From NCBI RefSeq assembly GCF_014161445.1, contig NZ_JABBXA010000001.1, forward strand, positions 558,001 through 622,000: 64,000 nt of DNA. Direction: 5' to 3'. Shown here piece by piece: positions 22,171 through 44,100 of the stretch (positions are counted from its first letter, which is position 1; each line of letters opens with the position of its first letter). Position numbers and translations under genes: made by a program. This DNA comes from Microbispora sp. H13382 (GTDB taxonomy: Bacteria; Actinomycetota; Actinomycetes; Streptosporangiales; Streptosporangiaceae). The notes beneath the pieces were generated by a model. The model saw nothing but the letters and a program-made list of their open reading frames with translations, made no database searches and was not told the DNA's origin.

Positions 22171-23211
22171 TCAGGCGGGGACGGGGGACGCGAACGTGGC
22201 CGCGGTACGGCCCAGCAGCGGGGGGAAGTCGCGCAGCACGGCCGCGAGGTCGTCCAGGTCGCCGTCGACCAGGGCCTGCGGCCCGTCGCAGAGGGCCTGC
22301 TCGGGGTGCGGGTGCATGTCGACGATCAGGCCGTCGGCCCCGGCCGCGACCGCGGCCCGGGACAGCGGCAGCACGAGGTCGCGCCGGCCGCCGGAGTGCG
22401 ACGGGTCGACGATCACCGGCAGGTGCGACAGCCGCTGGACGACCGGGACCGCCGAGACGTCGAGCGTGTTGCGGGTGGCGGGCTCGTAGGTGCGGATACC
22501 GCGCTCGCACAGCACGATGTCGAGGTTGCCGCGCTGGGCGATGTACTCGGCCGCCATCAGCCACTCCTCGATGGTCGCCGTCATGCCCCGCTTCAGCATG
22601 ACCGGCTTGCCCGCCGCGCCCACGGCCTGCAGCAGCGCGAAGTTCTGCGCGTTGCGGGTGCCGACCTGCAGCATGTCGGCGTACGACGCCACCAGCGCCA
22701 CGTCGTGGGCGTCCACGACCTCGGTGACGATCGGCAGCCCGGTCTGCTCGCGCACGTCGGCCAGGATGCGCAGGCCCTCCTCGCCCAGGCCCTGGAAGGC
22801 GTACGGCGAGGTGCGCGGCTTGAAGGCGCCGCCGCGCAGCAGCGTCGCGCCCGCCGCCTTGGCCATCAGCGCGGCCTCCAGCGTCTGCTGCGGCGTCTCG
22901 ACCGCGCACGGGCCCGCGATCAGGGTGACGGTGTCCGGGCCGATCGGCACGCCGCGCACGGTCACCGTGGAGCGCTGCGGGTGGTTCTCCCTGCTCACGA
23001 GCTTGTACGGCGTGGAGACGCGCACGACGTCCGCGACGCCCCGCATGCCGCGCAGGTTCAGTGCGGCGAACTGCTCCACGTCGCCGACGAGGCCGACGAT
23101 CGTACGGTTCACGCCGCGGCTCGTGAACGCCTCCCCTCCGGCCGCGGCGACGAGGCCGATGATCGCCTCGATGTCGTCCTGGGTGGCTTCCGGGGTCATG
23201 ACGATGACCAT
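22171..23211 (-). CDS. aroF: 3-deoxy-7-phosphoheptulonate (DAHP) synthase, type I beta
   Basis: DAHP synthase condenses phosphoenolpyruvate and erythrose 4-phosphate, the first step of aromatic amino acid synthesis. The 346-aa protein has an N-terminal ferredoxin-like regulatory domain (residues 1-70), the kind that gives tyrosine or phenylalanine feedback in Thermotoga-type enzymes. The catalytic barrel follows: IAGPCAVET, RGGAFKPRTSPYAFQG, KRGMTATIEEW, and the metal/substrate residues in CERGIRT and DPSHSGGRR. ATG 23211 gives the family N-terminus. Upstream lies what looks like a full attenuator (leader peptide 23309-23380, terminator 23251-23294), so expression should respond to aromatic aminoacyl-tRNA levels. 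Confidence 0.93.
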   Translation of the reverse strand: MVIVMTPEATQDDIEAIIGLVAAAGGEAFTSRGVNRTIVGLVGDVEQFAALNLRGMRGVADVVRVSTPYKLVSRENHPQRSTVTVRGVPIGPDTVTLIAGPCAVETPQQTLEAALMAKAAGATLLRGGAFKPRTSPYAFQGLGEEGLRILADVREQTGLPIVTEVVDAHDVALVASYADMLQVGTRNAQNFALLQAVGAAGKPVMLKRGMTATIEEWLMAAEYIAQRGNLDIVLCERGIRTYEPATRNTLDVSAVPVVQRLSHLPVIVDPSHSGGRRDLVLPLSRAAVAAGADGLIVDMHPHPEQALCDGPQALVDGDLDDLAAVLRDFPPLLGRTAATFASPVPA

Positions 23212-23250
23212 GGTGACTCCTGTCGCGTGAGCGGTGAACGGTGCGGGTCC

Positions 23251-23294
23251 GGAAAACGACGAAGGCCCCGGGTCCGTGTGGACCCGGGGCCTTC
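23251..23294 (-). terminator. Attenuator terminator of the aroF leader
   Basis: On the minus strand a perfect 15-bp stem (plus-strand arms 23261-23275 and 23280-23294, GAAGGCCCCGGGTCC and its complement) with a 4-nt loop is followed by GTCGTTTTCC. It lies 15 nt after the leader peptide stop and 40 nt before aroF. A leader segment at 23341-23349 repeats part of one arm (CGGGTCCGT), so it can pair with the opposite arm and compete with the terminator. Confidence 0.8.
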
Positions 23295-23308
23295 GTTCGC
23301 CGTGGCTG

Positions 23309-23380
23309 TCAGCGCAGCGCATGGAGGCGATCGGTCCTCACGGGTCCGTCGCCATACCAAAACGACCAAGCGGTGCGCAT
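23309..23380 (-). CDS. Leader peptide of the aroF attenuator (23 aa)
   Basis: The 23-codon ORF reads MRTAWSFWYGDGPVRTDRLH plus ALR. It packs two Trp, one Phe and one Tyr codon into five positions (W-S-F-W-Y, residues 5-9), far above chance in this proteome. It ends 15 nt before the terminator hairpin and about 100 nt before a DAHP synthase gene. The ATG follows a TATATT -10 box (23393-23388) by 7 nt, so it should be translated from a leaderless mRNA. Ribosome stalling at these codons when charged aromatic tRNAs are scarce is the expected regulatory signal. Attenuation of aromatic genes is established in actinobacteria; this instance is inferred. Confidence 0.78.
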   Translation of the reverse strand: MRTAWSFWYGDGPVRTDRLHALR

Positions 23381-23387
23381 GCGACGC

Positions 23388-23393
23388 AATATA
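23388..23393 (-). promoter_or_regulatory. -10 box of the aroF leader promoter
   Basis: TATATT on the minus strand is a strong -10 match in this GC-rich sequence. It is placed 7 nt before the leader-peptide ATG at 23380. A good -35 is not visible at 16-18 bp upstream. Confidence 0.6.
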
Positions 23394-23475
23394 GCGCATG
23401 GTTTCATGATCGTGCCCCACTGTGCGTCAGGGGGCCGGTGCGGTCGTGTCAGCGGCGGATGGCAGGATGGCCTGC

Positions 23476-24087
23476 GTGCCGGAGAAACCTGAGGAGGAGA
23501 CGCGCCTGCCACCGGGCCAGTACGTCCCACGCGGACAGCCGGTCGTCCACTACGGAAGGGTCCCGGGGTTCCGCCCGGAGACGTGGCGTTTCCAGGTGTT
23601 CGGCGCCACGGCCTCGGGCCGGGTCCATGAGTTCTCGTGGGAGGAGTTCTCCTCCCTGCCCACGGCGACGGTCGTGGCGGACTTCCACTGCGTCACCAAG
23701 TTCTCCATCATGGGCAACGAGTGGAGCGGCGTTCCCACGTCGGCGCTGCTCGAACGCGTCCCCCCGGCGCACGGTGTGCGCCACGTCATGGTCTGGGCCG
23801 AGTACGGCTACAGCGCCAACCTGCGACTGTCCGACTTCGACCGCCCGACCACGCTGTTCGCCACGCACCTCGACGAGAACCGGCTGTCCCCCGAGCGCGG
23901 CCACCCCGTACGGATCGTGGTGCCCCACCTGTACGCCTGGAAGAGCGTGAAGTGGGTGCGCGCGGTCGAGTACCTGACCGAGGACCGGCGCGGGTTCTGG
24001 GAGGATCGCGGCTACCACAACGTGGCCGACCCCTGGAAAGAGCAGCGCTACTCATACCAGGAGGACCCGGGCGACGGCCCGCCGTGA
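23476..24087 (+). CDS. Sulfite oxidase-like molybdopterin oxidoreductase
   Basis: This cytosolic molybdenum-cofactor protein (203 aa) belongs to the short sulfite oxidase-like/YedY-type family. The Mo-ligand cysteine is in ADFHCVTKFS. Cofactor-contacting stretches are SIMGNEWSGVP, MVWAEYGYSANL and PHLYAWKSVKWV, and the protein ends with a WEDRGYHNVADPWKEQRY motif common to the group. It lacks a Tat signal, so it should be cytoplasmic. The natural substrate is unknown. GTG 23476 is 7 nt after a CAGGAT box, which favours it; ATG 23467 in the same frame is the alternative. The LytS kinase gene starts 27 bp downstream. Confidence 0.85.
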   Translation: MPEKPEEETRLPPGQYVPRGQPVVHYGRVPGFRPETWRFQVFGATASGRVHEFSWEEFSSLPTATVVADFHCVTKFSIMGNEWSGVPTSALLERVPPAHGVRHVMVWAEYGYSANLRLSDFDRPTTLFATHLDENRLSPERGHPVRIVVPHLYAWKSVKWVRAVEYLTEDRRGFWEDRGYHNVADPWKEQRYSYQEDPGDGPP

Positions 24088-41705: not shown

Positions 41706-43782
<2,077 letters not shown>

Positions 43783-43785
43783 ACC

Positions 43786-43882
43786 GCGCTCCCTTCGCCG
43801 GCATTACCCGGATCAGGTCGGGGCGGTCGAGAGCCTCCCGCTCTCCTCTCAGCCCGGTCCGCCGGGCTCCCGCGCGTCTTAC
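43786..43882 (-). ncRNA. TPP riboswitch (thi box) of the thiOSG operon
   Basis: The minus-strand sequence has the conserved thi-box cores GGGCTGAGAGG (about 43850), ACCTGATCCGGGTAAT (about 43803-43820) and CCGGCGAAGGGAG at the 3' end. These fit the pyrimidine- and pyrophosphate-binding arms of the TPP aptamer. The 3' stem includes the thiO ribosome-binding site, pointing to translational control. No terminator stem follows before the thiO start. Confidence 0.93.
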
Positions 43883-44100
43883 GCCCACCAGCGTAGTACG
43901 CCGCCCGTCATGGCCGATCGCCGGCGGCCGTCCGCCGCCACCTGGCAGGCGGACGCCGCGTGCCGCGCGCGACGAAGATCCGCACGCGCGTCGTCCGGTG
44001 GAGTAAGGGCCTCCTTCACAACGTGGGCCCCCGGGGAAGTGCGCGCTACTTGCCCAACTCGTTATGAGGGGCCCGTTGGCCAGGGCCCCCGCTGACAATC

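Follow-up and report, generated by a model that had tools for sequence, protein, structure and literature searches.

Trp, Phe and Tyr codons in a conserved leader ORF and a covarying antiterminator point to a ribosome-mediated attenuator upstream of aroF in Microbispora and related actinomycetes

Upstream of a DAHP synthase gene in Microbispora sp. H13382, a short open reading frame (ORF) encodes Trp, Phe, Trp and Tyr within five codons and is followed by a hairpin, which raises the question of whether this region is an attenuator and, if so, which amino acids it would sense. We analysed the locus within a 64,000-nucleotide (nt) stretch of the 8.7-Mb genome, hereafter the window, and in related genomes, following up a first-pass annotation that had proposed such an attenuator. 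The features of the locus, numbered from the first letter of the window, are as follows.

22171 to 23211, minus strand: aroF, encoding a type I-beta DAHP synthase of 346 aa (PF00793, 8.7e-78; PF18152, 1.7e-18; NF006421 and TIGR01361 over cut-off)
23388 to 23393, minus strand: -10 hexamer TATATT of an extended -10 type promoter (TGCGCTATATT), from the sequence and a TANNNT hexamer in 90 of 90 distinct relatives
23309 to 23380, minus strand: leader ORF MRTAWSFWYGDGPVRTDRLHALR followed by a stop codon, probably leaderless, from the sequence and its recurrence in relatives
23354 to 23368, minus strand: putative control codons TGG TCG TTT TGG TAT (W S F W Y), from the sequence and the clusters of relatives
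23326 to 23353, minus strand: hairpin P2, directly after the aromatic codons, arms 23353-23343 and 23337-23326, from pairing and covariation
23341 to 23348, minus strand: leader side of antiterminator helix A, CGGACCCG, pairing with 23286-23280
23326 to 23330, minus strand: leader side of antiterminator helix B, TCGCC, pairing with 23301-23297
23297 to 23301, minus strand: post-stop side of antiterminator helix B, GGCGA, from the swap test and covariation of helix B
23259 to 23296, minus strand: putative 17-bp terminator hairpin, 5′ arm 23296-23280, loop 23279-23276 (ACAC), 3′ arm 23275-23259, from sequence, fold and conservation
23251 to 23258, minus strand: short U tail CGTTTTCC, from the sequence, weak by the canonical rule

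The aroF start was set at 23211 (MVIVMTPE...; PF00793 and PF18152), and the product carries a ferredoxin-like N-terminal domain; an ATG at 23322, given by a mechanical ORF call, was rejected. As a side observation, that call runs aroF through the terminator and would hide the leader (window 23211-23322, minus strand). The leader ORF agrees with its first description: it spans 23 codons from an ATG at 23380-23378 to a TGA at 23311-23309 and places Trp5 (23368-66), Phe7 (23362-60), Trp8 (23359-57) and Tyr9 (23356-54) within five codons. The 7-nt gap reported between TATATT (23393-23388) and the start codon was confirmed as well, and the short distance to the -10 box is conserved in relatives. 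Four or more W, F or Y residues occurred in none of the 14,954 five-residue stretches from 39 GC3-selected window ORFs. A consensus scan at the leader and hairpin returned no canonical sigma-70 promoter and no canonical terminator. On the opposite strand, a divergent ORF (window 23422-24087, plus strand) may start roughly 40 nt away from the leader ORF's first codon, in which case a very short region would serve both promoters.

Judged by aroF, the nearest named relatives of this genome belong to Microbispora. To describe the leader across relatives, we examined 110 aroF loci, in which some genomes are represented twice and the second aroF copy of genome G002 was left out; removal of repeats gave 90 distinct leaders, 50 of which were kept at 93% similarity, and 41 of those 50 make up alignment A1. 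Alignment of the leader from related genomes, a check that the first-pass annotation had suggested, revealed a conserved peptide, and an ORF with an aromatic cluster preceded aroF at 108 of the 110 loci, the two exceptions being L027, which retains only a few upstream bases, and L024, which has no leader. All 90 distinct leaders carry the TANNNT hexamer close upstream of the start, at 4-9 nt and mostly 6-8 nt (7 nt in 44, 8 in 35, 6 in 10, 4 in one and 9 in one, a single leader possibly counting at two spacings), and the background frequency of TANNNT at any of the spacings 6-8 is 1.2% of random positions in the same regions. Because the starts of six leaders (L047, L053, L054, L059, L105 and L074) were moved to the conserved start, their contribution to the spacing count is partly circular. 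The start codon is ATG in 83 leaders and GTG in 7.

A near full-length copy of the type I-beta DAHP synthase was present in 49 of 60 genomes drawn, and a leader preceded it in 43 of the 49: all 36 from the family of this genome (f1), 3 of 3 from f3 and one each from f4, f10, f16 and f22. In two others (f8 and f9) the aroF locus is cut by a contig end, and in four (f11, f13, f14 and f21) no recognised leader was found before aroF; loci without a recognised leader are L024, L225, L226 and L228. Leaders combining W, F and Y before aroF thus occur in five families besides f1 (f3, f4, f10, f16 and f22).

Next, we considered the aromatic cluster, defined as the six residues ending at the last aromatic residue. 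Among the 90 aroF leaders, the cluster contains Phe in 90, Tyr in 89 and Trp in 83, the Trp counts in this study ignoring the kinship of leaders. The earlier suggestion that all three aromatic residues are sampled is borne out by 82 of the 90 clusters. Outside f1 the order changes (RWYFLY, RWFFPY, GWFYFY, SWWFTY, RWFSYF, RWFAY) and W, F and Y are retained, which argues for selection on the set of residues and not on the shape of the peptide. The aroF leaders of f30 (L157 and L164) read FFSY and lack Trp. Codon choice in the cluster is nearly fixed: TTT encodes the Phe two positions before the cluster end in 44 of 50 leaders, and TAT closes the cluster in 48 of 50. Over the first 330 codons of 80 aroF genes these codons are almost absent (TTT 0/476, TAT 1/371), and the corresponding values in the 39 GC3-selected window ORFs, a biased set, are 9/395 and 26/257. 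Bacteria usually decode both codons of each pair, for Phe and for Tyr, with one tRNA, so the fixed TTT and TAT could be explained by slow wobble decoding or by avoidance of structure.

Between the leader ORF and aroF, the first-pass annotation had described a perfect 15-bp stem lying 15 nt after the ORF and 40 nt upstream of aroF. The GC-rich stem is in fact perfect over 17 bp, begins 12 nt past the leader stop codon and ends 47 nt before aroF. Its T-rich tail was described correctly in so far as a U run is present, but the run is short and poorer than had been claimed; the locus combines a conserved perfect hairpin with a weak U tail and has no canonical terminator call. In alignment A1, 7 of the 15 aligned pairs of the hairpin show changes on both sides that preserve the pair. 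Folding of 23240-23410 gave z = -4.25, mostly due to the hairpin.

RNAalifold applied to alignment A1 returned the terminator alone, and the alternative helices were therefore tested singly. Across the 41 aligned relatives, with shuffles that leave the relatedness of the sequences in place, covariation exceeded the shuffled level for P2 (92.0% of cells paired; 0.152 versus 0.067), helix A (97.1%; 0.233 versus 0.127) and helix B (80.4%; 0.123 versus 0.045). The leader side of helix A starts 5 nt past the last aromatic codon and its partner is the 5′ arm of the terminator. The repeat of part of the terminator arm in the leader, reported in the first pass, is real (23348-23341 on the minus strand), and the alternative fold considered possible there is conserved in relatives and covaries. 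When partners were exchanged among 50 relatives (L099 re-indexed by hand), own partners paired better than exchanged ones for both helix A (z -5.07) and helix B (z -5.18), and the 5′ half of the leader gave no signal (z -0.96 and 0.47). In f3, helix A is built from wholly different letters, GGGCTCCGAG with CTCGGAGCCC, 5-6 nt after the last aromatic codon, and its run length was matched by 0.3%, 1% and 4% of shuffles; in f22 the match extends over 9 nt (1.3% of shuffles). By the same run-length test against shuffles, helix A is weak in L227 (f16; 28% of shuffles reach the run length) and was not found in L223 (f4). Pairing between the two ends of the ORF (P1), examined as a further switch, was dropped because its covariation is weak. 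The first-pass annotation had named a lack of conservation of the peptide and of the competing fold as grounds for giving up its proposal; both proved to be conserved.

To locate the switch relative to the codons, we folded the RNA preceding the terminator 3′ arm with the sequence masked as far as 12 nt beyond the first base in the ribosomal A site; the footprint is assumed, and the folds describe equilibrium although the process is kinetic. Across 50 relatives, mean pairing of the terminator 5′ arm with the leader stood at 0.95-0.96 for an A site 2-4 codons ahead of the last aromatic codon, fell to 0.81 one codon ahead and 0.53 at it, and then ran 0.50, 0.48, 0.28 and 0.06 over the four codons that follow, with 0.12-0.16 further on. 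The Microbispora leader gave 0.99-1.00 from Trp5 to Phe7, 0.73 at Trp8, 0.72 from Tyr9 to Asp11, 0.30 at Gly12 and 0.01 at Pro13, which places its boundary 3-4 codons past Tyr9; from Trp8 on, the second GGACC of the leader substitutes for helix A. These values set the boundary between the cluster's end and a point about four codons further on. Folding with and without a ribosome, as had been suggested, thus gave the antiterminator with the ribosome at or before the cluster and its loss within about four codons beyond. Since stalls at codons 1-4 of the Microbispora leader likewise yield the antiterminator (0.86-0.99), the folds place the end of the switch and not which codons stall. When the ribosome is left out, the equilibrium fold of the RNA lacking the 3′ arm still contains the antiterminator (mean 0.80), so termination without translation is not explained by these folds. 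Synonymous recoding (40 versions per leader) lowered mean pairing from 0.95 to 0.76, and the natural codons exceeded the recoded mean in 49 of 50 leaders. Together, covariation, the swap test and the masking folds reveal an antiterminator that is mutually exclusive with the terminator and that can form while a ribosome occupies the control codons but not once it has moved well past them.

The ORF, its promoter spacing, the hairpin, the covarying helices, the rough switch boundary and the amino acid set are read directly from the genomes, and we consider it highly probable that they make up a leaderless, ribosome-mediated transcription attenuator that controls aroF by jointly sensing charged tRNAs for Phe, Trp and Tyr. 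In the mechanism that we infer, transcription would start on the A of the leader ATG or on an adjacent base, which would let a ribosome load at once. If any one of the three aminoacyl-tRNAs were short, the ribosome would wait within the W-S-F-W-Y cluster and block P2, leaving the helix A segment free to pair with the terminator 5′ arm; the second half of P2 would pair with the post-stop segment as helix B, and RNA polymerase would read through into aroF, the gene for the first enzyme of the common aromatic pathway. With all three plentiful, the ribosome would pass codons 12-13 and cover the leader side of helix A, whereupon the 17-bp hairpin would form and stop transcription.

A covariance model (R1) built from the aroF leaders was searched against the Microbispora genome, where it gave one strong full-length match, and against 394 genomes of the class. 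Among the genomes listed, strong full-length matches came from 40 of 41 in f1 and from many in f20, which is probably Streptomyces: the coding pattern of the S. lividans TrpL1 peptide occurred in 8 of 15 f20 genomes tested and in none of 5 others. At E <= 0.001, 248 of the 394 genomes had a match among the matches listed, most with a best E above 1e-9 and many of those listed comprising the hairpin part alone, and these were not counted as elements. Of the fetched full-length f20 matches, 33 of 34 precede a short chorismate mutase gene (assigned by sequence, and by PF01817 for L150), as do L162 and L193 (f39) and L158 (f50, PF01817). The exception, the weak full-length hit L192 (1.9e-7), has neither leader nor chorismate mutase. 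A Phe/Tyr leader with a terminator was seen before chorismate mutase at L148-L156, L168-L191, L162, L193 and L158.

The chorismate mutase leaders read like MLTHPTFLFTYGNRPTGCHGRAA, with a -10 box 6-7 nt ahead of the start; this distance was itself used in choosing the start. In masking folds they resembled the aroF leaders, with 0.94 two codons before the last aromatic codon and 0.14 three codons past it, then 0.35-0.40 at four and five codons past and 0.17 and below thereafter. Trp is present in 3 of 34 of these leaders (from Streptomyces-like genomes and f39) versus 83 of 90 aroF clusters; L148 and L158 also precede chorismate mutase, fall outside the 34 because of a text filter, and lack W.

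The Microbispora genome itself carries a second aromatic leader (L211:662-1761, C1 near 728,700), a leaderless-looking ORF, MGTYSSFRRPAPGGPVA, with a -10 box and a following hairpin with a good U tail, and it matters because leaders with and without Trp thereby occur within one genome. The gene after it encodes a C-terminal PF01817 domain and a partial DAHP-synthase-like region below cut-off, and a similar leader precedes this gene in 12 of 12 relatives fetched from the same genus and family (L238-L249). Among the 13 leaders the last aromatic codon is always TTT, Tyr occurs in 9 and Trp in none. In these leaders 11-14 bases pair with part of the stretch that separates the stop codon from the hairpin, a fold different from that of the aroF leader. 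Short aromatic ORFs with a -10 box were not found at five weaker model hits in the same genome (L215-L219). At another site (L210:1395-1457, C1 near 755,000), a short ORF without a -10 box, reading WSFIGYVWPVWPKVASDHR after its start codon, ends just before the start of another chorismate mutase gene and may be due to chance. The genome also holds other DAHP-synthase-like genes (a type I gene at 53% identity, a stretch 37% identical and two of class II), and no short aromatic ORF was found before the two class II genes or the prephenate dehydratase gene (L212-L214).

Because chorismate mutase serves Phe and Tyr only and DAHP synthase serves all three amino acids, the control codons seem to follow the end products of the enzyme served; the match concerns few clades, f30 breaks it, and 3 of the 34 chorismate mutase leaders keep Trp. 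A broader proposal, which we favour by a small margin over its denial, is that widespread actinobacterial aromatic attenuators have been retuned to the end products of their enzyme (Phe, Trp and Tyr for DAHP synthase; Phe and Tyr for chorismate mutase), with the near-absent TTT and TAT fixed as slow, sensitive control codons.

Part of the evidence could be read in other ways. The WxFWYGDGP peptide might itself arrest the ribosome in response to a small molecule and not to uncharged tRNA, much as TnaC arrests in response to tryptophan; hydrophobic aromatic peptides can interact with the exit tunnel, and what follows the cluster, YG and then often G/R-P, is seen again in the leaders of chorismate mutase genes. 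However, conservation of the GDGP codons can be put down to RNA pairing, since P2 and helix A are built from these very codons, and the order and number of W, F and Y vary by family (RWYFLY, RWFFPY, GWFYFY, SWWFTY, RWFAY), as would not be expected of an arrest peptide. We regard peptide arrest as very improbable. We give as little credence to a hairpin serving merely as an RNA stability or Rho-related element, with the ORF acting through translational coupling to aroF. The weak U tail would suit such an element, as would a survey whose available text reports the fewest predicted Rho-independent terminators in Actinobacteria and in some atypical species (PMC2965389). Against it, an alternative helix that covaries vies with the stem and disappears once the ribosome stands a few codons beyond the aromatic cluster, and aroF, with an AGGAG of its own, begins 97 nt downstream of the leader stop codon.

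Attenuation could also respond to Phe and Tyr in the manner of the Corynebacterium glutamicum aroR leader, the Trp codons being incidental. The aroR leader, with F-Y-F, answers Phe limitation and not Tyr limitation according to the available text of PMC11802643, 7 of the 90 aroF clusters do without W, and two f30 leaders read FFSY. Against this, W is present in the leaders seen in f3, f4, f10, f16 and f22 and in most f1 leaders, whereas leaders of chorismate mutase have it in just 3 of 34 cases and those of the chorismate-mutase-domain gene in 0 of 13, counts that again disregard kinship. We therefore regard incidental Trp codons as unlikely, though less so than the two preceding alternatives, and retain joint sensing of Phe, Trp and Tyr as the preferred reading.

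The C. glutamicum aroR leader peptide is the nearest known relative in kind and reportedly has a leaderless start, as attributed to Neshat et al. 2014. It too is an aromatic-codon leader peptide before a DAHP synthase gene, aroF, subject to ribosome-stalling attenuation, as far as the available text of PMC11802643 describes it. The Microbispora W-S-F-W-Y cluster departs from the F-Y-F, Trp-free arrangement of aroR, and its leader further differs in combining W, F and Y, in preceding a type I-beta enzyme, in forming a conserved nucleotide element and in having a similar element before chorismate mutase. From the accessible parts of PMC1262725 and PMC8079986, trpL/TrpL1 of Streptomyces and Corynebacterium share the actinobacterial leader peptide, the competing hairpins and the GC-rich terminator, with TrpL1 leaderless, but contain Trp codons only and precede trpE or trp operons. 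Leaderless attenuators are usual in Actinobacteria, according to the S. lividans work, whose list of 8 leaders, in the text available, includes none before DAHP synthase or chorismate mutase (PMC8079986), and for the Phe and Tyr operons of Actinobacteria a 2005 survey, in its accessible part, records no upstream RNA structures that are conserved (PMC1262725). A short ORF and a terminator also precede aroF in Acholeplasma (uORFC-13-1); this ORF, however, has at least one Phe codon, with no Trp or Tyr mentioned in the portion of the text available, possesses a ribosome binding site and belongs to unrelated organisms (PMC8632094). The ilvB leaders, as presented in the available text, likewise sample all end products of a shared pathway with one leader, but for branched-chain and not aromatic amino acids (LVVI in M. 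tuberculosis, PMC13236596; the Corynebacterium ilvB uORF, PMC11109978). In the full-text literature searched, with subscription papers mostly outside its scope, we found neither a W-F-Y leader before DAHP synthase nor, in Streptomyces, an aromatic leader before chorismate mutase. The attenuation mechanism would thus be one already known from aroR and trpL, and the candidate novelty would lie in the three-amino-acid family, which that literature did not yield.

If correct, the aroF leader would be a natural sensor in which five codons sum three amino acids, placed at the entry enzyme of a pathway feeding aromatic metabolism in actinomycetes. The leaders with Trp before the common enzyme and the mostly Trp-free ones before chorismate mutase would offer a test bed for control-codon choice, and the fixed rare TTT and TAT would make the codon choice of an attenuator directly testable. 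The leader also points to short genes hidden by mechanical ORF calling. At one further locus, in a Streptomyces-like genome (L205, G057:C1 near 2517511), a Trp leader reading WWWTAHP with a hairpin adjoins a class II DAHP synthase gene in divergent orientation. In database searches, the leader and hairpin element reached no Rfam family's gathering threshold and the two leader peptides queried had no NCBIfam match; the sole gathering-level Rfam match in the window is a TPP riboswitch at 43773-43883 on the minus strand.
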